In this document: positions 2 to 14,161 of the stretch, piece after piece
Position numbering within the stretch: the stretch's first letter is position 1
How the letters are laid out: every line of letters starts with the position of its first letter
Origin: Sphingobacteriales bacterium
GTDB taxonomy: Bacteria > Bacteroidota > Bacteroidia > Sphingobacteriales > Sphingobacteriaceae
Assembly: GCA_025353765.1 (NCBI GenBank)
Contig: JANXOD010000009.1
Span: 1 to 64,000, forward strand
Length of the DNA: 64,000 nucleotides
Reading direction: 5' to 3'
The notes under the pieces: model-generated
The model's database searches: none
The model's input: only the letters and a program-made list of their open reading frames with translations
Told to the model about the DNA's origin: nothing
Program-made: the position numbers and the translations under genes

Positions 2-1030
2 GGAGCACCCACAGCCGGAGTAGGAATAGACGGGGACTTTTATATTGATAACGGAACGAATACAATTTATGGACCGAAAGCGGCTGGTGTATGGCCAACC
101 CCAGGTAAGGCCTTGGCCAGTGGTCCGGCCGGAGTAGATGGAGTTAGCATTGACTTTAAAGGATCATTTGCGGATTTAACGGCATATAAGGTTGCTTTTC
201 CCAATCCTTCATTAAACCAAGCATATTATGACTTAGCTCTTAAACAATCGCTTGTATTTGATGGTATAAACTGGAAAGACTTTGCCCATGATGGGACAGG
301 AGGTTCAGGTTCAAGCACATTTGATTTTAGTGCTGTTAGTACCAATCCGAACCTTGGTCCTAGTCCTCAAGTATTTGGTACTAACGCTTCAACATTAGAT
401 CAAGTTTTAAAAAATTTAATTTACCCATCTGTAGCAGCAGTAGCATCATTAAGTGTTTCTGGAAGCTCTCTGTATGAAGTTGGTAATTCTGGCCTTTTCA
501 GTCTTGTTTGGTCGGTAACTTTGCCCACAGGTAGCACGCCTATTAAAGATGTTACTGTTAATACTGTTCCGCAAGGCACAACGCTTAACGGAACATTACC
601 TATTACTCCCAATTTTAGTGTAGCAGGAACCATTCCTTATTCAATGGTTGTCAACACTCAAGATAAAACGACTAATGCAGGTACTTCTATTACCTTTAGA
701 TACAGACGCTATTGGGGTACATCGTCAATAGCCCAACCTACTCAAGCTGAAATTACAGCAGCTTTAAACGGAGGTACTGACCTGGGTGCCGGTAATGTAA
801 ACCCTGGGTTTACCATCTCAATTCCTCCAGGTGCCGCTAATAACGCTTATGTATTCTTCGCTTATGCAAATGATAGCCTTCCATTAACTGAATTTAAAAT
901 AGGAGCAACAGATAATTTAGGAGCATTTACTCCAACAGATGTTACGGTTACAGGTAAAACTTACCATGTATATACTTCTAACAGTAAATTTGGTAATGCT
1001 ACACCGGCAGTAATTTACTCTACAAAATAA
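2..1030 (+). CDS. Collagen-like fibre protein, C-terminal part (5' end outside window)
   Basis: The frame is open from base 2, so the N-terminus lies upstream of the window; the internal TTG at 113 is not a believable start. The visible part begins inside a collagen-like unit (GDFYIDNGTNTIYGPK), followed by an FKGSF...NQAYYD...FDG module and a C-terminal domain of about 220 residues ending in a RRYWG-containing beta-rich region. The gene at 1042 repeats the same order, so the two are tandem paralogs 11 bp apart. Inference: a secreted, surface-exposed fibre or adhesin. The substrate is unknown; a phage-tail-fibre-like fold is an alternative. Confidence 0.8.
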   Translation, partial: GAPTAGVGIDGDFYIDNGTNTIYGPKAAGVWPTPGKALASGPAGVDGVSIDFKGSFADLTAYKVAFPNPSLNQAYYDLALKQSLVFDGINWKDFAHDGTGGSGSSTFDFSAVSTNPNLGPSPQVFGTNASTLDQVLKNLIYPSVAAVASLSVSGSSLYEVGNSGLFSLVWSVTLPTGSTPIKDVTVNTVPQGTTLNGTLPITPNFSVAGTIPYSMVVNTQDKTTNAGTSITFRYRRYWGTSSIAQPTQAEITAALNGGTDLGAGNVNPGFTISIPPGAANNAYVFFAYANDSLPLTEFKIGATDNLGAFTPTDVTVTGKTYHVYTSNSKFGNATPAVIYSTK

Positions 1031-1041
1031 AAATTGAAAGC

Positions 1042-2913
1042 ATGAAAAAATTATATATTTTCTTATCCATTATTGGTTTAATAAGTGTGTTAAACCAAAA
1101 TGTTTTAGCTCAGGTACCTTTTGGAGGTTATATTTCCACTGTTGGTACCGCAGACTATCCAACCCATCTTGATAATCTGGGAAAAGGGGGCTATCGAAGT
1201 GTGTTAGATAAGGCAGAGCGGGATTTAATTACTACCGAACGCCGGAAACCCGGCATGCTGGTATATGTTACATCTTTGGATTTAATGTACATTTTAAAAT
1301 CCGTTACGCCCGATCTTAATAGTAATGCTGAGCCTGCTGATTGGTTTCCATTATCATTTGGCACCAGTACTGGCGGTGGTTCAGTTATTTATAGTGGTAC
1401 AGGTACACCAACGGCTAATCCTCCGGCCAACAGTAAAGACGGAGATTATTACTTTGATAAAAGTGGCTCAACATTTTATGGCCCTAGAACGACTATAGCT
1501 AATGTTGTAGACTGGGGCACAGGAACACCATTATCAGGTGCGGCCGGAACTAATGGTAATACAGTATTAAATGGACAAAAAATACCGGACGATGTTAATG
1601 ATGGTGTAGATGGAGATTTTTATATTGAGACTTCAACTAATACGATTTACGGTCCAAAGCTAGCTGGTGCATGGCCTGCTACAGGAACTGTTTTGAAGGG
1701 TATAAATGGCAATACGGTATTAAATGGGCAAAAAACACCGGACGATGTTAATGATGGTGTAGATGGAGATTTTTATATTGAGACTTCAACTAATACGATT
1801 TACGGTCCAAAGCTAGCTGGTGCATGGTCTAAAGGGACATCTCTTATCGGTCCAGTAGGATTAAATGGTATAAATGGGAATACAGTATTAAATGGAACAG
1901 GAGATCCTAGTGTAAATAATCCTGGTGTAACCGGAGATTTTTACATCGATACTCAGGCCAATACAATTTATGGCCCCAAAGGAGCTACCATATGGCCTCT
2001 TACAGGAACCATTTTGAAAGGAACCAATGGCATTGGTGTTGATTTCAAAGGATCATTTGCTGCTGCTCCGGCAAATCCAACAATTAATCAGGCATATTAC
2101 GATACGGTTAAGGGGCAGTCTTTTATATTTGATGGTACAGCCTGGCAGCTTTTTGCTCAGGATGGCGCTTCAGGTATATTTAATGCTGCTGCAGCAAGTA
2201 CCAGCCCTATTGTTGGTTTAAGTGGTGTAACATTGGGGACTGCAAATTCAACCATAAGCCAAGTGTTGCAAGCTTTAATCTATCCATCTCTTCCGGCAGG
2301 AGCTTCATTAACTATAACTAACAATGGGGTTTCTCCTGTATTAGAAGTAGCTCCTTCGGGCACATTCACACTTAGCTGGGTGGTAACACCATCAGCAACA
2401 CCTAATACACCGATTAATAGTATTACTGTTAATGGTGTTTCACAACCTACTAGTCCACTTAGCGGAACAGTGAACATTAACCCAAATCCAAGTGTAGCCG
2501 GAACTACTAATTATTCCATGTCTGTTACAACAGATAAAACAACAAACGCAAATGCGTCCATTAGTTTTCAATTCAGGCGATTTTGGGCTCGTTGTGCAGG
2601 GCCTACACCTACTGACCTAGAAATTCTTGCCGCTAAAAATGCAAGTGCAGGTGGTGGTACTGACTTAGTTGGCAGCAACATAAATAATAATTTCAAAATT
2701 ACTTATAATGGTACCCCTTCGTATTTCTTCTTTGCTTATCCTACTAATTTTGCACCATTAAGCTCATTTATTATAGGATCTGCAGAAAGTTATCCGGCTT
2801 TTACAAAAGAACTTAACAGGTCCATTACTACTAACGGCGTTCAAAAAAATTATAATGTATACACCTCTCCAAATGCATATACAGCAGATACACCGCTTCT
2901 TTATACGAAATAA
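1042..2913 (+). CDS. Secreted collagen-like repeat fibre protein
   Basis: 623 aa. The signal peptide is about residues 1-23, cleaved after VLA. An N-terminal module follows (PFGGYISTVG ... RRKPGMLVYV, about 24-95) that is shared with the genes at 2920 and 6741. Three collagen-like units of the GDFYIET/NTIYGPK type start near residues 172, 223 and 277, then an FKGSF module near 335 and a C-terminal beta-rich domain from about 400 homologous to the preceding gene. The first two units are identical over 90 bp of DNA, a recent duplication. No recognisable T9SS sorting domain. Co-directional with the flanking fibre genes and 6 bp from the next. Inferred role: extracellular fibre. Confidence 0.85.
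   Translation: MKKLYIFLSIIGLISVLNQNVLAQVPFGGYISTVGTADYPTHLDNLGKGGYRSVLDKAERDLITTERRKPGMLVYVTSLDLMYILKSVTPDLNSNAEPADWFPLSFGTSTGGGSVIYSGTGTPTANPPANSKDGDYYFDKSGSTFYGPRTTIANVVDWGTGTPLSGAAGTNGNTVLNGQKIPDDVNDGVDGDFYIETSTNTIYGPKLAGAWPATGTVLKGINGNTVLNGQKTPDDVNDGVDGDFYIETSTNTIYGPKLAGAWSKGTSLIGPVGLNGINGNTVLNGTGDPSVNNPGVTGDFYIDTQANTIYGPKGATIWPLTGTILKGTNGIGVDFKGSFAAAPANPTINQAYYDTVKGQSFIFDGTAWQLFAQDGASGIFNAAAASTSPIVGLSGVTLGTANSTISQVLQALIYPSLPAGASLTITNNGVSPVLEVAPSGTFTLSWVVTPSATPNTPINSITVNGVSQPTSPLSGTVNINPNPSVAGTTNYSMSVTTDKTTNANASISFQFRRFWARCAGPTPTDLEILAAKNASAGGGTDLVGSNINNNFKITYNGTPSYFFFAYPTNFAPLSSFIIGSAESYPAFTKELNRSITTNGVQKNYNVYTSPNAYTADTPLLYTK
1585..1827 (+). repeat. Direct repeat inside collagen-like gene (period 153 bp)
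   Basis: Bases 1585-1674 and 1738-1827 are identical over 90 bp, within a 153-bp (51-codon) unit. The similarity is weaker on either side, and a third diverged unit follows at about 1873. The period keeps the reading frame. Confidence 0.9.
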
Positions 2914-2919
2914 ATAAGT

Positions 2920-5900
2920 ATGAATAAATTTTTATTGTTATTATTTATAAGTTCAATGAGTTTGTTAAATAAAGATGCTTTAGCTCAAATACCTTTTGGA
3001 GGATATCTTTCCACCATTGGCCCTCTTGATGTGTATCCAACGCATCTGGAGAATTTAGGTCTTGGCGGCTATAGAAGTGTAACGGATATTAATGGGCGAA
3101 ATGTTATCACAAAAGAGAGGCGAAAAGAAGGTATGCTGGTATATGTAAGCGGAGATCAGAGTTTTTACCAGTTACTGGGTACTACTCCTGCTACGCTTAG
3201 TGATAATACCAAATGGGTTAAGGTAAATATAGGCGCCGGTTCTTCATGGAGTTTAAGTGGAAATTTTGCCACTGCTACAGATTTTTTCGGAACTACCAAT
3301 AATGTACCTGTTATATTTAAAGCTAATAATAAAGAAGGTTTAAGAATTTCTCCTAATGCTAATGGTATAAATGATATTGGTATCAATACAGGTTCTCCAA
3401 GATCCTCATTTGATATTAATACCTCAGATGCTATGATTGTGCCTTTGGGTACAACGGCCCAGCAACCTGCAACTACTGTTACAGGTATGCTACGTTTTAA
3501 TGCCGATAATGATAAATTGGAATATGCTGATAATAGCAAAAGCTGGCAAAATATTTCTAATAGTAATACTGCCTGGTCATTAAGCGGAAATACGATAGGC
3601 TCCACCGGTACAAATACTTTAGGAACTCAAGATGATTTCCCTGTTATATTTAATACGCATGGGGTAGAGGCCTTTAGAATTACATCTAATGCTGATGGGA
3701 TTACCCAGGGTAATTTAAATTTAAAAGCTCCTTTACAGATCAACGATCAACAGATACTTTCAGACGGTGGTGATCCTACGCTCAATAATATACTAATAGG
3801 TAATACTCAAGCTGCTTCTTTGGGAAGTAATAATATATTTATAGGCCAGAATGCGGGCGCTGATGCTATTGGTTATGGTATTTTCATTGGCCAAAACTCA
3901 GGGAAGGGCGCTGTCTATGGCTATAATAATACCTTGGTAGGAAATGATACAGGTTCATCAGGTATGAGTGGAACGAACAATAGTTTTTTTGGGACTCAAG
4001 CTGGAACAGTTGTAACTCAGGGAGAGTCTAATAGTTTTTTTGGAACCAATGCCGGATTGCAGACTACAACGGGCTCCGAGAATATTTTTATTGGCAATGG
4101 GGCCGGTTTTGCTAATATAGATGGAAGTGATAATATTGGTATTGGGGGTGGTCCAATTGCACCGGGTCTGACAAACTCGATCGCTATAGGGGTTGGCACT
4201 CAGGTTTCTCAAAGTAACTCCATGAACCTCAGTCTTAAAGTTAATGGTCTTAGGGTAGGTATTAATAATCCTGCACCAAAAGCTTCATTAGATCTGAGTG
4301 CTAATACGGATGCTGTAATTCTGCCCAAGGGTGATACTGCTAACGAAAGGCCCGGATCTATTGGTACCATTAGTGCAGTTACAGGTATGTTACGCTATAA
4401 TAATAGTACTAACGTATTAGAATATTATGACAATACTGGATGGAAAGACGTTCTGGGTTCTGGCAGCACCTGGAGCTTAAGTGGAAACCTGGGTGCGCCT
4501 GGAATTTTTCTGGGAACAACAAATGACCAGAATGTTATATTTAAAACAGACGGTGTAACAAGTATGCAACTTCTCTCTAACGGTAATGCAAAAGCAGGTA
4601 ACCTGGAGTTGAGTGCCACTTTACGATTGAATGGTCACTCTATGCTTTCAGATGGTGGTGGTGGCTCTGCACTTAATAACATATTAGTAGGTAATATCAA
4701 TGGTCCTGACTTAACCGGCACTAATAATATATACATTGGTGCTAATGCCGGTGCTGCTGCTACAGCGAGTTCTTCTAATATATTCATTGGCTCAAACTCA
4801 GGAACGAATGCACTTGCTACTAATAATAGAAATGTATTTGTTGGCGATTTTACAGGTCCTAACATAGCTGGAGCAAATAATAGCTTTTTTGGAAGTGGAG
4901 CAGGGCAGGTTGCAGGTGCAACCACGTTGAATAGCTTTTTCGGCCTCTCCGCAGGAGGAGCTACTACTACAGGGGGTAGCAATGCTTTTGTGGGTGCCAG
5001 TTCCGGTGCATATAATAAGACTGGGAGTAATAATACGGCTATTGGAACATCTGCTGGTCCGGCGGCGGGGTCATCGGGTCTATCAAATACTGTTGCTATA
5101 GGCTCCAATGCTTTTGTTGCCAAAAGCAATGCCATGGTATTAGGAGGACTTGGCCAATATGCAGTTCAGGTAGGTATTAATACCACCTCTCCAAGAGCTT
5201 CATTAGATATTGCTACTACAGATGCGATTATTGTGCCTGTGGGTACAACGATCCAACAGCCTGCAACCACTATAACCGGTATGCTACGTTTTAATACCAT
5301 TAATGATAAATTGGAATATGCTGATAAGAGCAATAACTGGCAAAATATTTCTAATAGCAATTCTGCCTGGTCATTAAACGGGAATACTGCCATAGCTACA
5401 GACTTTTTTGGAACCAGCAATAATCAACCTGTTATATTTAAGACTTTTGGTATAGAAGCTTTTAGAGTTACAACACCCATTGGTGCTACACCCGGTAATA
5501 TTGATGTTAAATCTGCTCTGCAGATGAATAGCCAAGCAATGCTCTGGGATGGAAATGCACCTAATAGGAATAATATATTCTTAGGCAATACAAAACCTGT
5601 TAACCTTAGCGGGCAGTATAATATATTTATGGGTCAGAATGCAGGTCTGGCTTCAATAAATGTTTTTGATAATTTGTTTATAGGCCGGGATGCAGGGTTA
5701 CTTAATACAGTGGGCAGTAACAATGTTTTAATTGGAGGGCAGACAGGAAATAAAGTCAACAGTACAGGTAATACTTTCGTTGGGGCTCAGATTGGGGCAT
5801 CTAATACTGGAGTAACGGCAGCCGGACTGGGAGGCAATAGTTTTTTTGGGTCTTTTGCCGGACTTCGTTTTACTGACGGAGCATATAATAACTTTTTCGG

Positions 5901-6603
5901 AAATTTTGCAGGAGATAAGACTACAACGGGCAGCAATAATAACTTTTTTGGTACCCTTGCCGGTCATGGAAATGTTGATGGAAGTTATAATATTGGTATT
6001 GGCGACAATGCAGGGCCTGGTTTAACAAGTTTGATAAATACGATTGCCATAGGACATAATGCATATGCAATGAAAGATAATTCACTAATCCTAGGAGGAA
6101 CTGCTTATCCGGTTAGTGTAGGTATTAATACTCAATCTCCAAGAGCTTCATTAGATATCGCTACTACAGATGCGATGATTATACCTGCAGGTAATGATAC
6201 AAATGATAAGTCAGCCATCGCCCAGGTTGTGCCTGGTATGGTACGTTTTAATACAACTAATAATGTGTTAGAATACCATGATAACAGTTCCTGGCAAAAT
6301 GTAGTTTCAGGTAACGCAACTATAATAAAATTCCAATCTACCGGACAAGGTGTTGTTCCTCTTGCTGCAAATACAGATGTAGACTATGATATTGTTTTTC
6401 CCGGAGGGAATGTTTTTAATGCAGCTACAGCTACAGCTATAGCAAGTCCTACAGTGCTATTAAATGCTGGTGTTGTAATTAGTTTTGTAATGGTTAGTGC
6501 TAAAGACACGGTTACCATTAGATTAAGAAATACTTCCTCATCAGCTCTTAATAACTATTTTGTAGGCTCAAAATTAAATTGGAATATTACTGTAACTCAA
6601 TAA
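2920..6603 (+). CDS. Large secreted fibre protein with YadA-head-like repeats
   Basis: 1227 aa. The signal peptide is about 1-22 (ends DALA), then the shared N-terminal module (PFGGYLSTIG ... RRKEGMLVYV). The rest is built from large units of roughly 260-300 residues: WSLSGN plus an FFGT/VIFKT segment, a run of short repeats of the type NNIFIGQNAG / NSFFGTNAG / TTGSNN, then VGINTxSPRASLDI and GMLRFNxxNDKLEY. Three head-repeat blocks are visible, near residues 290-420, 580-720 and 880-1040. The short repeats resemble left-handed beta-roll heads of trimeric adhesins and phage fibre shafts. The last 95 residues match the end of the gene at 6741. No sorting domain recognised. Inferred role: trimeric surface fibre. 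Confidence 0.83.
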   Translation: MNKFLLLLFISSMSLLNKDALAQIPFGGYLSTIGPLDVYPTHLENLGLGGYRSVTDINGRNVITKERRKEGMLVYVSGDQSFYQLLGTTPATLSDNTKWVKVNIGAGSSWSLSGNFATATDFFGTTNNVPVIFKANNKEGLRISPNANGINDIGINTGSPRSSFDINTSDAMIVPLGTTAQQPATTVTGMLRFNADNDKLEYADNSKSWQNISNSNTAWSLSGNTIGSTGTNTLGTQDDFPVIFNTHGVEAFRITSNADGITQGNLNLKAPLQINDQQILSDGGDPTLNNILIGNTQAASLGSNNIFIGQNAGADAIGYGIFIGQNSGKGAVYGYNNTLVGNDTGSSGMSGTNNSFFGTQAGTVVTQGESNSFFGTNAGLQTTTGSENIFIGNGAGFANIDGSDNIGIGGGPIAPGLTNSIAIGVGTQVSQSNSMNLSLKVNGLRVGINNPAPKASLDLSANTDAVILPKGDTANERPGSIGTISAVTGMLRYNNSTNVLEYYDNTGWKDVLGSGSTWSLSGNLGAPGIFLGTTNDQNVIFKTDGVTSMQLLSNGNAKAGNLELSATLRLNGHSMLSDGGGGSALNNILVGNINGPDLTGTNNIYIGANAGAAATASSSNIFIGSNSGTNALATNNRNVFVGDFTGPNIAGANNSFFGSGAGQVAGATTLNSFFGLSAGGATTTGGSNAFVGASSGAYNKTGSNNTAIGTSAGPAAGSSGLSNTVAIGSNAFVAKSNAMVLGGLGQYAVQVGINTTSPRASLDIATTDAIIVPVGTTIQQPATTITGMLRFNTINDKLEYADKSNNWQNISNSNSAWSLNGNTAIATDFFGTSNNQPVIFKTFGIEAFRVTTPIGATPGNIDVKSALQMNSQAMLWDGNAPNRNNIFLGNTKPVNLSGQYNIFMGQNAGLASINVFDNLFIGRDAGLLNTVGSNNVLIGGQTGNKVNSTGNTFVGAQIGASNTGVTAAGLGGNSFFGSFAGLRFTDGAYNNFFGNFAGDKTTTGSNNNFFGTLAGHGNVDGSYNIGIGDNAGPGLTSLINTIAIGHNAYAMKDNSLILGGTAYPVSVGINTQSPRASLDIATTDAMIIPAGNDTNDKSAIAQVVPGMVRFNTTNNVLEYHDNSSWQNVVSGNATIIKFQSTGQGVVPLAANTDVDYDIVFPGGNVFNAATATAIASPTVLLNAGVVISFVMVSAKDTVTIRLRNTSSSALNNYFVGSKLNWNITVTQ

Positions 6604-6740
6604 AATAATTTATGGAAATAAATAAAACTCATCTTAGTAATATAGCTTTTAACCTTGGTTTTAGCCAATATAAATAATACATTGTTAGTGCATTTACCAT
6701 TTAATAAAAATAAATTATTATAAAATAAAAATTGACAAGC

Positions 6741-9326
6741 ATGAAAAAATTATCCATTTTCTTATTCATAATTGGTTTAATGAGTTTATTAAATCAAAAT
6801 GCTTTAGCTCAAATACCATTTGGTTCATATCTTTCAACCATTGGCCCTGCTGATGTGTATCCAACCCATTTGGACAATTTGGGCTTAGGTGGTTATAGAT
6901 CTGTAGCTACCGGTGCCGGTGGAGAAAGAGATGCTATTACTACAGAACGCAGGAAGCAGGGAATGCTGGTATATGTTGTAGCAGATGACAAAACTTATAT
7001 GCTAAAATCAGCAATACCTGATATCACTAAAAATGTTGATGGTGTTGATTGGGTTTTAGCCGGTGGCGGCAGTGGTACTGCATGGAGTTTAGGCGGAAAT
7101 ACTATAGGTGCCGGTACAAATACTTTTGGAACTATAGATGATTCCCCTGTTATATTTAACACTTTCGGTGTAGAAGCTTTTAGGGTTACATCTAATTCTA
7201 ATGGCACTACGCCCGGTAATGTCAATCTTAAGGCCGGTTTGCTAATGAATGATAAGCCTATACTTTCGGATAATCTTACTAACTTATTAATCGGTAATAC
7301 ATCACCTACTAATATCACTGGAGGGAATAATGTAATGATAGGTGATGATGCAGGGAAATCTAATATGAATGGAGCAAATAATTTCTTTATAGGTACTTCT
7401 GCAGGTTCGAATAATACAAGTGGGAATAATAATACTTTTTTTGGAATATTATCAGGAGGGCAGAATATAGATGGAAATAATAATATAGGCATTGGTTATA
7501 GTGCGGGGCCCGTTTATCCAGATTTAAATAATACCATTGCCATAGGATATGGTGCTACAGCTGACCAAGATAATGCGATGATATTAGGTGGGACCGGCTC
7601 ATTCGCAGTTCAGGTAGGTATCAATACCTCCGCTCCAAGAGCTTCATTAGATATTGCGACTACAGATGCTGTAATTGTACCTGTAGGTACAACTTTTGAA
7701 AGACCATCAGCAACAACCGGATCATTACGTTTTAACAGAGATAATGATAAATTAGAATATGCTGACAAGAGCAATACCTGGCAAAATATATCTAATAACA
7801 ATTCTGCCTGGTCATTACTTGGTAATGTAGGGACTAATTCTACAAAGAATTTTTTAGGGACTACAGATAACCAAGCTCTTGTATTCAAGTCTAATAATAT
7901 AGAAGGTTTAAGAATATCCCCCAATGGTACAAGTAATAATATAGGTATCAATACATCTAGTCCCCGATCTTCATTTGATATTAATACCAAAGATGCTATA
8001 ATTGTACCTGTTGGTAATAATACAACAGATAAACCTTCACCGTTAGTCTCTGTACGGGGTATGTTACGTTATAACACTCAAGGAGATAAGCTGGAATATT
8101 ATAATAACAGTTCTTGGTTAGATATTCTTGCTGGCGGTACTCCTTGGGCACTAAGTGGAAATACAGGTACTAATTCTGCTACAGATTTCTTTGGAACTAT
8201 AGATAATCAGGATATTGTATTTAAAACTTATGGATTGGAAGCTTTTAGAGTTACATCTAATGGAAGTATTCTTCCTGGTAATGTAGATCTTAAGGCTACC
8301 CTGAAAATGAATGGGCAACCAATGCTTTCTGATGTGGGATCACCTTTAAAGAATAATATACTCGTAGGAAATACACAGCCAGCTAATTTAAAGGGAACTA
8401 ATAATATATACATAGGGCAGGATGCGGGTGCAACTACAACAACTTCTAAAGATAATATATTTATCGGCCACAATTCAGGAATTAATGCTACCAGCACTAG
8501 TTTATCAAATACATTTGTTGGTGATAATACAGGGAAAGCCACATCCTCTGCTGGTAATAGTTATTTTGGAAGCTCTGCAGGATCAGCTTCAACCTCAGCT
8601 GGTTTCAATAGCTTTTTTGGCTTGGCATCAGGATCAGGAACTACAATAGGTGGGGGTAATACTTTCTTTGGTGTTGCATCTGGTCAAGTTAATGTGACTG
8701 GAAATTATAATACTGCTATTGGTTATAATGCAGGGCCAGGACCAGGTACAAACTTTTCCAATACTACTGCAATAGGAGATGGTGCTCTAGTGAGTCAGGA
8801 TAATTCGATGGTATTAGGAAAAAAAGGGTCAAGTGGTAGTTTACCTGCAGTTAAGGTAGGTATTAATACTGCTACTCCAAGAGCTGTATTAGATATTGAT
8901 ACTAAAGACGCCATAATTTTACCTAAGGGTACAAGTGGTGATAGGAATACCTTTACTCCTTATACAGGAATGATACGCTTTAATACTACTCTTAATAGGT
9001 TAGAATATGTTGATGCCACAGATTGGTACCCAATTCCGGTTGTAGTAAATGGGAGCGTTGCCGCAACTACTAAGTCTCTTACTGCTGCGGGTACAGGCGC
9101 TAGTAGCTATCAGGATTATGTAGTAGATATGACACCTGCACCAGCTACAGGTGTAGCCACTGCTAATCCTGATGTTGATTTAAACCCGGGTATAGTTATT
9201 AGTTTTGTGAGGGTAACAACATTTTTTGGTGTAACTATTGTTAAGATCAGAGTGCAAAATGTAACACCTGGACCTGTAGCTATAGCTCCAGCTAATTTCA
9301 ACTGGAATGTTACAATAACTCAATAA
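6741..9326 (+). CDS. Secreted fibre protein with YadA-head-like repeats (paralog)
   Basis: 861 aa from ATG 6741; a TTG nine bases upstream is not needed. Signal peptide about 1-23 (ends NALA), the shared N-terminal module, then two large units carrying NNIYIGQDAG / NSFFGLASG-type head repeats and VGINTxxPRASLDI linkers. The final 90 residues (NPGIVISFV ... FNWNVTITQ) match the end of the gene at 2920. The leader just before the ATG is nearly identical to the one before 1042, so the duplication covered the upstream region as well. Preceded by a 137-bp gap. Inferred to be a shorter version of the same extracellular fibre. Confidence 0.83.
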   Translation: MKKLSIFLFIIGLMSLLNQNALAQIPFGSYLSTIGPADVYPTHLDNLGLGGYRSVATGAGGERDAITTERRKQGMLVYVVADDKTYMLKSAIPDITKNVDGVDWVLAGGGSGTAWSLGGNTIGAGTNTFGTIDDSPVIFNTFGVEAFRVTSNSNGTTPGNVNLKAGLLMNDKPILSDNLTNLLIGNTSPTNITGGNNVMIGDDAGKSNMNGANNFFIGTSAGSNNTSGNNNTFFGILSGGQNIDGNNNIGIGYSAGPVYPDLNNTIAIGYGATADQDNAMILGGTGSFAVQVGINTSAPRASLDIATTDAVIVPVGTTFERPSATTGSLRFNRDNDKLEYADKSNTWQNISNNNSAWSLLGNVGTNSTKNFLGTTDNQALVFKSNNIEGLRISPNGTSNNIGINTSSPRSSFDINTKDAIIVPVGNNTTDKPSPLVSVRGMLRYNTQGDKLEYYNNSSWLDILAGGTPWALSGNTGTNSATDFFGTIDNQDIVFKTYGLEAFRVTSNGSILPGNVDLKATLKMNGQPMLSDVGSPLKNNILVGNTQPANLKGTNNIYIGQDAGATTTTSKDNIFIGHNSGINATSTSLSNTFVGDNTGKATSSAGNSYFGSSAGSASTSAGFNSFFGLASGSGTTIGGGNTFFGVASGQVNVTGNYNTAIGYNAGPGPGTNFSNTTAIGDGALVSQDNSMVLGKKGSSGSLPAVKVGINTATPRAVLDIDTKDAIILPKGTSGDRNTFTPYTGMIRFNTTLNRLEYVDATDWYPIPVVVNGSVAATTKSLTAAGTGASSYQDYVVDMTPAPATGVATANPDVDLNPGIVISFVRVTTFFGVTIVKIRVQNVTPGPVAIAPANFNWNVTITQ

Positions 9327-9336
9327 ATTAACTTTT

Positions 9337-10542
9337 ATGAAAGCATATAAATTTATTTTCGGTACAGCTTTTACCTTAGGTTTAGCTGGTATATTACCAG
9401 CTTCTGCCCAATGGGTAAATAATGGAGCTGATGTATTTATTGCATCCACTGCCCAGGTAATGGTTAATAATACAGATTATGTTCATCAGTCTGGCGATGT
9501 AGAATTGCAGGGTTGGCTGGGGCTTAACGGTAATTGGGAGAATAATGATGCGTCTTCACTCGCATTAAACCCAGCAGGTACCGGAACAGTTGAATTCTCT
9601 GGTATAGATCAAAACTTCGGAGGTACGAATAAAACTCAGTTTTATAATCTACTTCTTTCAGGTGCAGGTATAAAAACCATGAATATTGATCAGGAAGTGA
9701 GTAATACACTGGATTTAACAGATCGTGAGCTGGCCCTCCAAAATTTTAATTTATCGGTAACTGGTACAGCTTTAGATGCAATAAAACGCAGTTCGGGTTT
9801 TATCAGTTCTATAAGTACACAGGGAGCAATTATTCGCAACACATCATTAGCCGGAGAGTATCTGTTTCCTACAGGGTCTACTTTAGGAGCGACTGCACGC
9901 TATCGTCCGGTTATTTTAACTATACCTACCGCTGCGGATGCCCGTTTAGCCGTATCTTTTGCAAACAGTGATCCAAATGCCAATGGTCTTCCCCGAGATG
10001 TTTTAGGTCAGGGTTTAACAGATATTAATCCTAATTTTTATCATCGTATAGAACGTTTAGCAGGCACTACACCTTTTGATATCAGCATGCTATATAATGA
10101 TGCAGATGGCGGCTTTAAAGAAATGGCTTATTGGGAAAATACAGGCTGGAAAAATTTAAATAAAACCACATTAACAACAGCAAATTATGGCGATGGCCTC
10201 ACTTCCAGAATTACTAAATCGTCGGTAGATTTAATGGGTATACAATACTTTGCTTTAGCTAATGGTAAAGGGACAAATTTTCTTACCATTCCAACGGCAT
10301 TTAGCCCTAACGGCGATGGCATGAATGATCTATTCCTAATAGGTGGGCTAGACGGCTATCCGGATAATGAAGTACGTATTTTAAATCGCTGGGGTGATGA
10401 ACTTTACTATAAAAAATCTTACAGCAGCAGCAATGCTTTTGATGGCGCAGGCTTTGATCCAGGTACTTACTATTACGTTGTAAAAGTAAATCTTAATGGT
10501 CAGGTAAGATCGTTTGCTGGTTACATTACCCTGCTGCGATAA
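9337..10542 (+). CDS. Gliding-motility-type T9SS cargo protein (CHU_C domain)
   Basis: 401 aa. Signal peptide about 1-24 (ends ASAQ). The middle is a beta-rich region without a named domain. The last 85 residues start PTAFSPNGDGMNDLF and contain VRILNRWGDELY and a GTYYYVVKVN segment, which is the gliding motility-associated C-terminal domain (TIGR04131, type B T9SS signal). It lies 10 bp after the fibre gene and directly upstream of a PorP/SprF gene, the usual pairing for type B cargo. It may anchor or present the fibres encoded upstream; that link is inferred from position only. Confidence 0.87.
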   Translation: MKAYKFIFGTAFTLGLAGILPASAQWVNNGADVFIASTAQVMVNNTDYVHQSGDVELQGWLGLNGNWENNDASSLALNPAGTGTVEFSGIDQNFGGTNKTQFYNLLLSGAGIKTMNIDQEVSNTLDLTDRELALQNFNLSVTGTALDAIKRSSGFISSISTQGAIIRNTSLAGEYLFPTGSTLGATARYRPVILTIPTAADARLAVSFANSDPNANGLPRDVLGQGLTDINPNFYHRIERLAGTTPFDISMLYNDADGGFKEMAYWENTGWKNLNKTTLTTANYGDGLTSRITKSSVDLMGIQYFALANGKGTNFLTIPTAFSPNGDGMNDLFLIGGLDGYPDNEVRILNRWGDELYYKKSYSSSNAFDGAGFDPGTYYYVVKVNLNGQVRSFAGYITLLR

Positions 10543-10632
10543 AATACCAGTGCCTTAAAATTGTCTTTATGCATACGCGATTAATAAGTTGTGAGTTTAT
10601 AAATACCAATAAATAATAAATTAAATACGATA

Positions 10633-10676
10633 AAACTATTATATGCAGTGTTACGCAAACGGGGATATAATAGTTT
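10633..10676. promoter_or_regulatory. 12-bp perfect inverted repeat upstream of the PorP/SprF gene
   Basis: Arms at 10633-10644 and 10665-10676 are perfectly complementary (AAACTATTATAT and its reverse complement), separated by 20 nt, and end 28 bp before the PorP start. The stem is nearly all A/T and lacks a clean T-tract, so an operator or mRNA structure is as likely as a terminator. Confidence 0.45.
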
Positions 10677-10704
10677 CATTTTATTATAAGAAAATTAGAA
10701 TCGG

Positions 10705-11673
10705 ATGAAAAAGATATTATTTACCTTTTGTATGGTGTTTTTGGGCTCGAGTTTGTTTGCGCAACAAGATGCATTATACAGCCAATATATGTTTAATGGC
10801 CTGGTACTTAACCCCGCTTACGCGGGTAATAAAGGTGTATTAAATATAAATTTAGTTAATCGTAATCAATGGGTTGGGCAAAAAGTGGAAGGCGCACCTC
10901 AAACTCAGGCACTTACTGCAGATGGGTCTTTCATGGATGGTAAAGTAGGACTTGGGGTTCATCTGATTAATGATAAAGTGGGTGCGCAGAGTCAGCAAAT
11001 AGCTATGTTTTCTTATGCATATAAGATACCAGTTTCCGAAACAGCTGATCTTTCTTTCGGATTAGGTGGGGGTGTAGCCAATTTTGTATTGGATGGAACA
11101 CAATTAACTACAACACAACAGGGTGATCAGGCTATACCAACAGAACGGATATCACACTTTACACCTGATGTGAATTTTGGAGTTTATTTAAGCCATGAAA
11201 AATATTACGTAGGATTATCTACAACTCATTTAATTACGTTAAAGCCCAAAGCTGATTTTGCTAATTACGTTAATCTCAAAAGACATTATTATTTAACTGG
11301 TGGATATATTTTCCCGATCAATGATTTTGTAAAAGCATACCCTTCGGTACTTGTTAAATCAGATTTAAACGGCCCTATCAATGTGGATGTAAATGGATTT
11401 GTAATGATTTTGGACAAGTTTAGTGTAGGAGCCTCATACCGTACCGGAGTCTATGTCCAGAGTGGTAATTATTCACCAGGCGCTTTAAAAAGTAATTCTG
11501 TAGTAGCAATGGCCCAAATATATATGCTTGATCAAAAATTAAGGGTAGGTTATTCCTATGATTTTGATGTTTCAAAGACCGGCTATAGCAGGAATACTCA
11601 TGAAATATCTTTAGGTTATCTGATTAAAACAGAGGATGGTTTAAGAAATCTTTCATCACCGCGTTATTATTAA
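10705..11673 (+). CDS. PorP/SprF family type IX secretion outer-membrane protein
   Basis: 322 aa. Signal peptide about 1-19 (ends LFAQ), followed at once by the family signature QDALYSQYMFNGLVLNPAYAG. The remainder is beta-barrel-like with alternating hydrophobic strands and ends in the aromatic SPRYY. In Flavobacterium johnsoniae SprF is needed for secretion of the neighbouring SprB adhesin, and PorP-type proteins commonly sit next to CHU_C cargo, as here. Inferred role: outer-membrane partner of the cargo at 9337. Confidence 0.93.
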   Translation: MKKILFTFCMVFLGSSLFAQQDALYSQYMFNGLVLNPAYAGNKGVLNINLVNRNQWVGQKVEGAPQTQALTADGSFMDGKVGLGVHLINDKVGAQSQQIAMFSYAYKIPVSETADLSFGLGGGVANFVLDGTQLTTTQQGDQAIPTERISHFTPDVNFGVYLSHEKYYVGLSTTHLITLKPKADFANYVNLKRHYYLTGGYIFPINDFVKAYPSVLVKSDLNGPINVDVNGFVMILDKFSVGASYRTGVYVQSGNYSPGALKSNSVVAMAQIYMLDQKLRVGYSYDFDVSKTGYSRNTHEISLGYLIKTEDGLRNLSSPRYY

Positions 11674-11779
11674 TATAGATGGTAAACCCATAAAGAAATG
11701 ACTGAATATGCTATATTTGGCAATATTCCTTCAAAATAAATAAAGACATCAACAAATAAATCCCCAAATAAATTATTAA

Positions 11780-14161
11780 ATGAAAAATAATACTCTTTAC
11801 AGTCTGTTTATACTTTTTCTGTTTAGCAGTACTTGTTGTCTAGCCCAAAGTACACGCCAAAAAGCAGATTTTTTATTTAAGAATGAACAGTATTTTACTT
11901 CTTTAGAATATTATCAGAAATTATATCAAAAAGATTCAACAAAAGCAGATGTTAATACTAAAATTGCTCAGATCTATTATAAAATAAAAGACTACCCGCA
12001 ATCTGAAAAATGGTACCGTAAAGTACCGATACAGCAACTTGGCTCTGAGCCTTCGTTAATATTTGAATATGCGGAAGTTTTGCGTATTAATGGGAAATAT
12101 CGGGATGCTTCTACAGCTTATCGGGATTATTTGATTAAAGTCCCGAATGAGTTGAAAGCGTTAAGATTGGCTGAATACTCGGATTCCATAGCCTTCATGA
12201 ATAAGAATGGGAAGAAAAAAGAGAATAAATCAAGGGTGGCATTGCTTACTCCGGCTAACTCAACATACGCAGAATTTGCCCCATTACCTATAAAAAATCA
12301 ACTGCTTTATGTTACTGACAGACTCCAAAAGATTGATAAAGATGCTCCTAAAAGTAGTCAACAACAAATAAATGTGTATGGACGTACTGGTAAAGCATAT
12401 TCCTATTTAATAGCACAACCCTTTGTTTTAGACTCCTTAATAACATTAGAGTCCGCTTTAAAAACGAGATTCAGTACAGAGAAGACAAATTTTAAGACGG
12501 CTGCACCAGATACTTCCTTTTTATCTATCTTACGTAAAGAGCTTAACGTTGGGCCATTATGTTTTAATGCAAAAATGGATACCTTATTTTTTAGCCGGGT
12601 TCGTGTATTAGGAAAATCAAAAAATGATAAATCAGATGAACCTAAAATTGACCTTAATAAGGTTTCATTTAATGAATTATGTTATATAGTTAAAGAGAAT
12701 AACAAATGGTCAGATATTAAAATTTTCCCCTATAATGATTATCTCTCTTACTCCATGATGCATCCTGCTTTGAGCCCTGACGGAAAACGACTTTATTTTA
12801 CATCAGATAGAAAAGGAAGTATAGGAGCATTTGATATTTTTTATTGTGAGCGTATAAAAAATGATATATGGTCTACTCCTATTAATGCTGGAAGTACTAT
12901 TAATACAGAAGGTTATGAGTTATTCCCTTATATTGATGCCGATAACACTATTTATTTTTCTTCAGACGGACATATCGGCTTAGGTGGTTTAGATATTTTT
13001 TATACTTCATTAAATACAAATATTCCTGATAAGGCTCATCCTGCTCTAAGCCATATTGGCGATCCAATAAATTCATCAGGAGATGATTTTGGTATTTATA
13101 TGTTTAATCCTGCAACAAAGCGTGAAAAATGGGGACTTCTTAGCTCCAATCGTGCCGGGGGAAAAGGGTTTGATGATATTTATAGTTTTTATCTGAATGA
13201 AACTACCTCGTGTCCTGCTTCTATTTTAGTAGTAGATAGTGAAACTAAAAATCCGATTGTTAATGCACGCCTTCTTTTCCAACAAACTCCCAAAGATTCT
13301 GTCATTGAAAAATTCACAGATATTCAGGGTAAAGTTACGATGGAAATTAAAGACTGCGCTCCTGGATCTATGATCATTAGTAAAAATGGATATAGTGGTT
13401 TAAAAGATTCACTTTTAACTAAAACAGAAAAGCCACTTTATAAATATGAACTCGCTCCCATTAAAGGGTATTCTATTGAAGGTGTAGTTACAGATAATGA
13501 AACTAAACAACCCTTAGATTCTGCTGTGGTTAAAATTATTGCCGTTGTTACACGTAATACGCAGCCACTTATAACAGGTAAAAAAGGTGAGTATAAGTTT
13601 GATCTTAAGGATACCACTAATTATTTGGTACTGGCTCAGAAAAAAGGCTATTTTACAAAACGGAATGTTTCTGTAAATACAATAGGCCGCCCACCAGGAA
13701 CTATATTCAGCGTGAATTTTGAGCTTGAAAAAATAATATTTAATAAAGAAATTAAAATTGAAAATATTTACTATGATTTAGGGAAAGCAACCCTTAGAAA
13801 ACAATCTTTGCCTGAATTGGATAAAGTACGCGATCTCTTAGTTGATAACCCAGAGTTAATGATTGAACTTAGTTCTCATACAGATTCACGTGGAAAGGAT
13901 AAAGCCAATTTATTGCTCTCCCAACGTCGTGCTGCCTCGGCAGTAAAATACCTGGCTAGTAAAGGAATTGCTTCTACCCGGATGATAGCACGAGGTTATG
14001 GTGAAAGTAAACTGATTAATAACTGTACGAATGGAGTACCATGCTCAGAAGCAGAGCATGAAATGAACCGCCGTACAGAATTTAAGGTAATTGGTTATGT
14101 TAAAACTCTTCCGGTTAAAAAAGCTGTAGTTAAACGTAAAGGGAAGCCTAAACACAAATAG
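11780..14161 (+). CDS. PorE-like OmpA protein (TPR, propeller, CRD, OmpA)
   Basis: 793 aa. Signal peptide about 1-22 (ends CCLAQ). TPR-like helices follow (about 25-130; ADFLFKNEQYFTSLEYYQKL), then WD40/PD40-type propeller blades (about 260-470; HPALSPDGKRLYFTSDR), carboxypeptidase-regulatory-like folds (about 485-650), and a C-terminal OmpA peptidoglycan-binding domain (about 660-780) with HTDSRGKDKANLLLSQRRA and NRRTEF. This order matches PorE, a T9SS component thought to tie the system to peptidoglycan. It follows the PorP/SprF gene by 106 bp. Whether it is the core PorE or an accessory paralog cannot be decided here. Confidence 0.9.
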   Translation: MKNNTLYSLFILFLFSSTCCLAQSTRQKADFLFKNEQYFTSLEYYQKLYQKDSTKADVNTKIAQIYYKIKDYPQSEKWYRKVPIQQLGSEPSLIFEYAEVLRINGKYRDASTAYRDYLIKVPNELKALRLAEYSDSIAFMNKNGKKKENKSRVALLTPANSTYAEFAPLPIKNQLLYVTDRLQKIDKDAPKSSQQQINVYGRTGKAYSYLIAQPFVLDSLITLESALKTRFSTEKTNFKTAAPDTSFLSILRKELNVGPLCFNAKMDTLFFSRVRVLGKSKNDKSDEPKIDLNKVSFNELCYIVKENNKWSDIKIFPYNDYLSYSMMHPALSPDGKRLYFTSDRKGSIGAFDIFYCERIKNDIWSTPINAGSTINTEGYELFPYIDADNTIYFSSDGHIGLGGLDIFYTSLNTNIPDKAHPALSHIGDPINSSGDDFGIYMFNPATKREKWGLLSSNRAGGKGFDDIYSFYLNETTSCPASILVVDSETKNPIVNARLLFQQTPKDSVIEKFTDIQGKVTMEIKDCAPGSMIISKNGYSGLKDSLLTKTEKPLYKYELAPIKGYSIEGVVTDNETKQPLDSAVVKIIAVVTRNTQPLITGKKGEYKFDLKDTTNYLVLAQKKGYFTKRNVSVNTIGRPPGTIFSVNFELEKIIFNKEIKIENIYYDLGKATLRKQSLPELDKVRDLLVDNPELMIELSSHTDSRGKDKANLLLSQRRAASAVKYLASKGIASTRMIARGYGESKLINNCTNGVPCSEAEHEMNRRTEFKVIGYVKTLPVKKAVVKRKGKPKHK

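Follow-up and report, generated by a model that had tools for sequence, protein, structure and literature searches.

Substrates of the type IX secretion system (T9SS) bear their own C-terminal signal, a fusion lacking this C-terminal domain (CTD) having served as a negative control, and they are inferred to leave the translocon CTD first (accessible part of PMC10994853). In Porphyromonas gingivalis, PorE binds PorP and PorP binds the type-B protein PG1035 (excerpts of PMC9143113). In Flavobacterium johnsoniae, two type-B substrates need their SprF-like shuttles, and in five operons a type-B substrate is encoded together with a shuttle and a PorE homolog, one such substrate being static (excerpts of PMC12618676). 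The Cys-Xaa-Cys C-terminal tail of SprF links moving adhesins to GldK and is required for SprB movement (excerpts of PMC12635249). In the present study we analysed a locus in which fibre genes precede a comparable set of T9SS genes. It lies at positions 2-14161 of a 64,000-nucleotide stretch (the window) of a Sphingobacteriales bacterium, which corresponds to positions 1 to 64,000 of contig JANXOD010000009.1 (assembly GCA_025353765.1), here designated C27. No operon joining fibre genes with SprF or PorE was found described in titles and the beginnings of abstracts, a search that mostly left subscription papers and preprints aside; the available portions of PMC9936825, PMC12560110 and PMC5742166 contain nothing bearing on the fibre question.

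The analysis showed a stable pairing of a fibre gene with a partner gene whose product bears a T9SS signal, of which the combination with SprF and PorE genes is the type-B form. The window begins at the first base of C27, and seven plus-strand genes fill positions 2-14161; these co-directional open reading frames (ORFs), already proposed in the earlier note, were confirmed, g1 being cut by the contig start. Three domains recur in the fibre proteins: NT, common to g2, g3 and g4 (61% identity between g2 and g4 over 128 residues, 56% between g2 and g3 over 91); CT1, common to g1 and g2 (46% identity); and CT2, the shared C-terminal domain of g3 and g4, which comprises about 75-80 aa and lies at the C-terminus, or a few residues from it, in the fibres examined. 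The genes are as follows:

2..1030, plus strand: g1, fibre gene of which the 3' part is present; a single 'GDFYI..IYGP' unit followed by CT1; 5' end open at the contig start
1042..2913, plus strand: g2, 623-aa fibre; NT behind a signal peptide, three 'IYGP' units, CT1
2920..6603, plus strand: g3, 1227-aa fibre; NT behind a signal peptide, about 16 IGxxAG units, CT2
6741..9326, plus strand: g4, 861-aa fibre; NT behind a signal peptide, about 8 IGxxAG units, CT2
9337..10542, plus strand: g5, proposed adaptor; signal peptide, conserved N-terminal domain g5N (residues ~25-310), type-B sorting domain (317-401)
10705..11673, plus strand: g6, outer-membrane carrier of the PorP/SprF family; C-terminal tail ending in PRYY
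11780..14161, plus strand: g7, protein of PorE architecture and proposed peptidoglycan tether; TPR, PD40 propeller, CarboxypepD_reg, OmpA

Signal peptides were called by eye throughout. The start of g4 was taken as the ATG at 6741, the ORF listing having a TTG start at 6732. The profiles for CTDs, the VGIGT start of fibres (VG), NT, CT1, CT2, g5N, SprF and PorE were built by us from few seeds, the type-A profile (CTDA) being seeded with some proteins that it later counts, and many of the examined loci end at contig edges.

We propose, with a probability of roughly one half (0.5), that phage-like fibres are held by the T9SS-exported adaptor g5 and fixed at the cell through g6 and g7. The products of g1-g4, together with those of related frames on contig C23 (see below), would be exported by Sec and form fibres from domains that phage tail fibres also have, and the N-terminal domain of g5 would bind the fibre. 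The SprF-like g6 would collect the type-B CTD of g5 from the T9SS translocon, the fibre either riding out with g5 or being caught by it at the surface. In the outer membrane g5 would be retained by g6, itself tied to peptidoglycan by g7, so that the fibre should be fixed and not moving. The several fibre genes may supply interchangeable tips, or a mixture of them, for a single holder. Docking of the fibre on g5, their co-export and a function in adhesion are all conjectural. In phages NT starts the fibre, and it is this end of a fibre that usually faces the particle; our guess is therefore that the N-terminal end docks, although the conservation of CT2 suggests a role for the opposite end too.

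The strongest support comes from the family. The g5N profile (A3) was searched in 101 family genomes and found in 20 of them, 21 of its matches being strong and 2 weak; the strong modules are that of the window, a second one from the same genome (L008, contig C24) and 19 from relatives. Each of the 21 has an SprF gene and then a PorE-like gene after g5, and in 20 a CT2-ended fibre gene stands directly before g5. Between fibre and g5 the gap ranges from -11 to 16 bp in all modules but that of the window (20 in total; starts taken mechanically). The single exception, L042, has three short genes before g5; two of them, the nearest included, match the VGIGT profile, and so does a longer gene of 1696 aa that lies ahead of the three. 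In nineteen modules (L008 and L024-L041) the neighbour is one divergent gene of ~281 aa, presumably encoding a transketolase subunit; some modules have it in cut or re-started form. These nineteen thus occupy one chromosomal site and are therefore orthologs representing one placement; the modules of the window and L042 are other placements. In trees of g5 and SprF the window copies lie on long branches with no clear nearest neighbour. Fibre length within the orthologous set varies from 252 to 1066 aa, with the VGIGT start and CT2 kept, and the number of Gly-X-Y triplets in the shafts of relatives ranges from 0 to 135.

A wider test covered the class, where the g5N profile (A7) was found in 204 of 395 genomes. 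We chose forty loci among the matches listed, taking the best match for each of 32 distinct family labels and adding 8 short ones. A fibre gene was present within four co-directional genes of g5N in 21 of the 40 (18 by hidden Markov model alone), against a background, in the loci examined, of 1 fibre-like gene among 361 located far from T9SS genes. By our own profile, seven of the 40 g5N proteins carried a type-A signal, five of them near a fibre. Loci that lack SprF often have a type-A partner.

Scans that did not start from g5 gave a similar picture. The CT2 profile (A4) yielded 30 matches in 26 of the 101 family genomes, of which 21 fall in g5 modules; of the other nine, four have SprF together with a type-B-like gene, two have a gene of type A, one lies in a prophage and two stand without a partner. 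The two type-A partners (L044, L049) match TIGR04183 with 47.9 and 38.1 bits (cut-off 23). The type-B-like gene of L045 falls below the TIGR04131 cut-off (30.4 vs 35), and the calls in L046, L048 and L051 depend on our own profile only. In these four loci, which belong to the same genus, the type-B-like gene, SprF and CT2 fibre occur together with the fibre after SprF, not before g5; three of the loci adjoin what are presumably ribosomal protein genes. A lone CT2 fibre with a signal peptide and no partner was detected in L050. Another lone CT2 fibre, in L047 (9019-11115), has no signal peptide, and no phage genes were noticed alongside it, its neighbours not having been put through a scan.

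The VGIGT profile (A8) gave 107 matches, i.e. 88 loci in 55 of the 101 family genomes, 22 of them near g5N and at least 29 near SprF (six SprF places were added by hand, and the g5 list included the two weak g5N matches). Twenty loci were hand-picked from the 58 remaining. A gene with a type-A or type-B signal occurred within four co-directional genes in 12 of these 20 and SprF near six, the expected number with a signal gene being 0.64 by a rough model of our own, based on genome-wide counts with type-A counts taken up to 50. The sample contains probable orthologs (L094/L102, L099/L108, L110/L112, L100/L105), which lowers the number of independent cases. The 2.8-Mb genome from which the window derives has at least 50 matches to the type-A sorting domain, versus 3-15 in eight relatives of the same genus. 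Because the family modules, the class test and the VGIGT sample with its expectation all point the same way, the linkage of fibre and T9SS genes goes beyond chance, and chance is very unlikely as its cause. The recurrence suggests that related bacteria assemble and hold their surface fibres in a common manner.

The NT domain is rare, being found in 3 of 395 class genomes; a single-sequence search of 60 genomes matched only the genome of the window. The GTDB genome collection contained five loci, all in metagenome-assembled genomes (MAGs) titled Chitinophagaceae or Bacteroidetes. SprF was absent from the locus DNA examined in all five, PorP/SprF being encoded elsewhere in four of the five genomes. 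In four loci (L013-L016) a co-directional NT/CT1 array is directly preceded by a gene for a small type-A-like secreted protein; on the preceding side the fifth array runs to the contig end. By NCBIfam, the type-A-like protein of L013 passes (31.4 bits) and that of L014 fails (13.1 bits), while the calls in L015 and L016 depend on our own profile only. The five MAG loci and the existence of type-A partners led us to reject SprF as an obligatory partner.

The 401-aa g5 protein is, judging from its matches to TIGR04131 (41.1 bits, cut-off 35) and CHU_C (73.2 bits, cut-off 27), a type-B T9SS substrate. In a PDB family-profile search only its sorting domain matched, to GhpA of Aureispira (E 2e-10), the grappling-hook protein of that bacterium. 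The g6 protein matches T9SS_PorP_fam (TIGR03519) with 265.8 bits (cut-off 90.55) and PF11751 with 249 bits (cut-off 22.3). Its last 35 residues contain no cysteine, so the Cys-Xaa-Cys signature of the mobile gliding SprF is missing, and the same holds for the SprFs of the 20 other family modules. Among 42 SprFs examined a single cysteine was present in four, namely three paralogs from the genome of the window that lack a fibre module, and L086. A cysteine-free tail of g6 fits a non-moving complex and lends it weak support, not being specific to fibre modules. For g7, PD40, CarboxypepD_reg and OmpA exceed their cut-offs, the TPR models remain below theirs, and CHU_0125_OmpA scores 399 bits (cut-off 620); on its domain content g7 is best regarded as an OmpA protein with PorE-like domain order. 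GldK, L, M and N are encoded in this genome. Of the trio of cargo, SprF and PorE named in the earlier note, the first two members thus stood, and the third fell short of the PorE cut-off. In all 21 family modules SprF and PorE-like genes follow g5 and fibre genes precede it, and this recurrent linkage supports that note's idea of a surface appendage with a dedicated export or anchoring module.

The fibre proteins themselves have no recognised T9SS sorting domain, as each of g1-g4 matches 0 NCBIfam families at E<=0.1, in agreement with the earlier note. Our own type-A and type-B profiles found no T9SS signal in any of 116 fibre-domain frames from all loci examined, phage ones included (111 distinct, 86 distinct and not end-cut). 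The description of g1 and g2 as collagen-like had to be rejected: neither matches PF01391 at E<=0.1, and their longest Gly-X-Y runs are of 3 and 4 triplets, respectively. The pairing of collagen-like and head-like shafts, which the earlier note called unusual, falls with it, and the shaft in any case varies among relatives. The YadA-head-like character ascribed to g3 and g4 was not confirmed by Pfam, in which PF05658 scores 21.1 bits in g4, under the cut-off of 25, and was not seen in g3, although repeated IGxxAG units occur in the two proteins (16 in g3 and 8 in g4 by our own pattern); a YadA C-terminal membrane anchor was not found in either protein (Pfam, E<=0.1). Sequence searches of PDB returned no match for NT and one non-significant match for CT2 (E 0.68). 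Peptidase_S74, a tail-spike chaperone domain, was found in the partner fibre of one relative (L101), and the fibres presumably form trimers.

A relation of these proteins to phage fibres is indicated by several observations. NT occurs in seven viral contigs (IMG/VR, L017-L023), some near-identical, in proteins read as having no signal peptide; a terminase is present on the one contig that was checked. CT1 stands one gene from the NT gene in L017, L019 and L020, where a 347-348 aa protein, which to us reads like a patatin, is encoded between the CT1 and NT fibre genes. The prophage L043, which has a portal gene, carries CT1 and CT2 fibres without signal peptide in adjacent clusters; within L043:4655-8967 the two proteins lie close together, the second bearing a GDSL lipase domain. 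The phage link of CT2 depends on this prophage, since 129 pattern stretches in viral contigs yielded no confirmed CT2 and PHROG families matched it weakly, with 6e-4 at best and for 2 of 17 members. The CT1 model (mean pLDDT, predicted local distance difference test, 56) gave 29 fold matches to viral proteins at E<=0.001 with TM-scores of ~0.3-0.4, mostly uncharacterised phage proteins, the named ones including tail fibre, tail and baseplate; it gave no fold match in PDB, and for the NT model no viral protein matched in fold at E<=0.001. A tail-spike family of PHROG matches g3 (1.9e-14) and g4 (1.1e-15), with stronger matches to unnamed families, and g2 matches are weaker, at NT and mid-protein. 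Short stretches of g4 match 93 cyanophage records over 6-7% of the protein, among the matches listed, and g2 matches seven phage records.

The genome holds further fibre genes. Contig C23 ends in an open frame of 217 aa (L006:10062-10712) with NT and a repeat of g1 type, ahead of which lie genes of 608 aa (NT, CT1) and 350 aa (VGIGT start, CT1). C23 and C27 have no exact overlap, and their join is deduced from two complementary gene halves; C23 probably holds the start of the fibre array, its last gene being the 5' part of g1, in which case the array would consist of six fibre genes. The L008 module keeps the order of the window (fibre, 402-aa g5 homolog, SprF, PorE-like gene), and its fibre (605 aa, CT2) is truly collagen-like, with 96 Gly-X-Y triplets and a PF01391 match of 7e-45. 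Contig C35 (L010:3-4755) begins inside a fibre-like frame, of which 812 aa are present, and genes for a 426-aa protein and then an SprF accompany it. The 426-aa protein gave an arabinofuranosidase-type match and no T9SS signal; L010 is possibly a third, partial fibre-SprF module.

Several points count against a fibre held by g5, g6 and g7. Binding between fibre and g5 and display of the fibre at the surface are presumed, and the AlphaFold2 monomer models are weak (mean pLDDT 60 and 56, the latter for CT1). The g5-g6 and g6-g7 gaps in the window (162 and 106 bp) exceed those of relatives, g7 reaches 318.5 bits against a cut-off of 600 for NF052230 (T9SS_PorE), and Cys-Xaa-Cys is absent from all 42 SprFs, with or without a fibre neighbour. 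As 19 of the 21 family modules share one site, they reflect few independent events. At class level, SprF was near 13 and a PorE-like gene near 8 of the 40 g5N loci, 19 lacked a recognised fibre nearby, and the fibre-less L088 and L089 do have SprF and PorE-like genes. Of the 20 sampled VGIGT loci, eight had no T9SS-signal gene near and only one had g5N by profile. The earlier note had named as adverse to its proposal fibre homologs lying mostly away from SprF and PorE, or inside prophages. This was found in half: SprF is missing from the DNA examined at all five MAG NT loci and at 14 of 20 VGIGT loci, and homologs occur in phage contigs and one prophage. Even so, a T9SS-signal gene stands beside the fibre in 12 of 20 VGIGT loci and in 4 of 5 MAG loci.

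These points leave room for other explanations. Perhaps the genes are merely co-regulated adhesion genes of one operon, the fibres leaving the cell by lysis, vesicles or another outer-membrane path, or staying periplasmic; the interaction of fibre and g5 is, after all, only deduced, and the partnerless VGIGT loci and the lone signal-peptide fibre of L050 are easily accommodated. Yet fibres are paired with partners of either type, A or B, at several places and in more than one gene order, which exceeds what common regulation of a single locus would predict, and we consider co-regulation alone rather improbable. Alternatively, the T9SS might export the fibres themselves, CT2 (and perhaps CT1) serving SprF-like carriers as an unrecognised sorting domain, with g5 as a separate cargo. 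The size and terminal position of CT2 would suit such a role, SprF is near 25 of the 30 CT2 matches, and CT2 is one of the two ends kept in family-module fibres with varying shafts. However, CT1 and CT2 also end fibres without signal peptide in the L043 prophage, CT1 occurs in phage contigs, and T9SS-signal neighbours also accompany fibres that end differently (with CT1 in MAGs, with Peptidase_S74 in L101); self-export is therefore unlikely in our estimation.

A remnant of a prophage or phage-tail-like particle would explain the matches of NT, CT1 and the repeat bodies to phage families, phage records and phage contigs. We rejected this reading and regard it as highly improbable, given the flanks and the signal peptides. 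Of ten scanned flanking proteins nine match cellular families (aconitase, cyclophilin, SPOUT methyltransferase, DUF5606/DUF6852, polysaccharide deacetylase, OEP, HlyD, glycerol-3-phosphate dehydrogenase and DEAD helicase) and one matches none, and all six visible fibre N-termini read as signal peptides. An adaptor-held fibre remains our preferred reading. Its extension to the Bacteroidota as a whole is tentative and somewhat doubtful: domesticated phage fibres lacking a CTD would be exported via a CTD-bearing adaptor, typically with g5N, whose CTD type would set their fate, i.e. attachment to lipopolysaccharide or release for type A, and SprF with PorE for type B. If CTD-less fibres commonly use CTD-bearing partners, signal searches miss part of the secretome. 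If the proposal is true, some SprF/PorE operons gain a role, phage tail-fibre domains are reused as bacterial appendages, and a poorly understood class of fibre-like genes becomes a testable pair.

Compared with described systems, the window fibres resemble YadA-type trimeric autotransporters in their head-like IGxxAG repeats and the sub-threshold PF05658 match of g4, but no YadA anchor was found in them and the holder is separate and T9SS-linked. With the tail fibres of tailed phages they share NT and CT1 (phage contigs), CT1 and CT2 (prophage) and the g3 and g4 bodies (PHROG), from which they differ by Sec signal peptides and by surroundings in which no phage genes were recognised. As in the SprB/SprF system, a barrel of the SprF family would carry a type-B substrate, whereas the Cys-Xaa-Cys tail of SprF has no counterpart in g6 and the 20 module SprFs, cysteine-free in their last 35 residues (excerpts of PMC12635249). 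Another comparable system is Fjoh_3952/3951/3950 of F. johnsoniae, in which a type-B substrate, its cognate SprF-like shuttle and a PorE homolog form one operon and the substrate is static; that substrate is a putative adhesin, whereas here a 401-aa CTD bearer stands beside CTD-less fibres (excerpts of PMC12618676). In PorE-PorP-PG1035 a type-B protein, a PorP/SprF barrel and an OmpA/TPR/propeller protein correspond to g5, g6 and g7, although the complex, as described in the available excerpts, is without fibre proteins and g7 is under the PorE cut-off (PMC9143113). The new element, relative to such a PorE-PorP-type-B complex, would be a signal-less fibre placed beside, and presumably held by, a signal-bearing partner.

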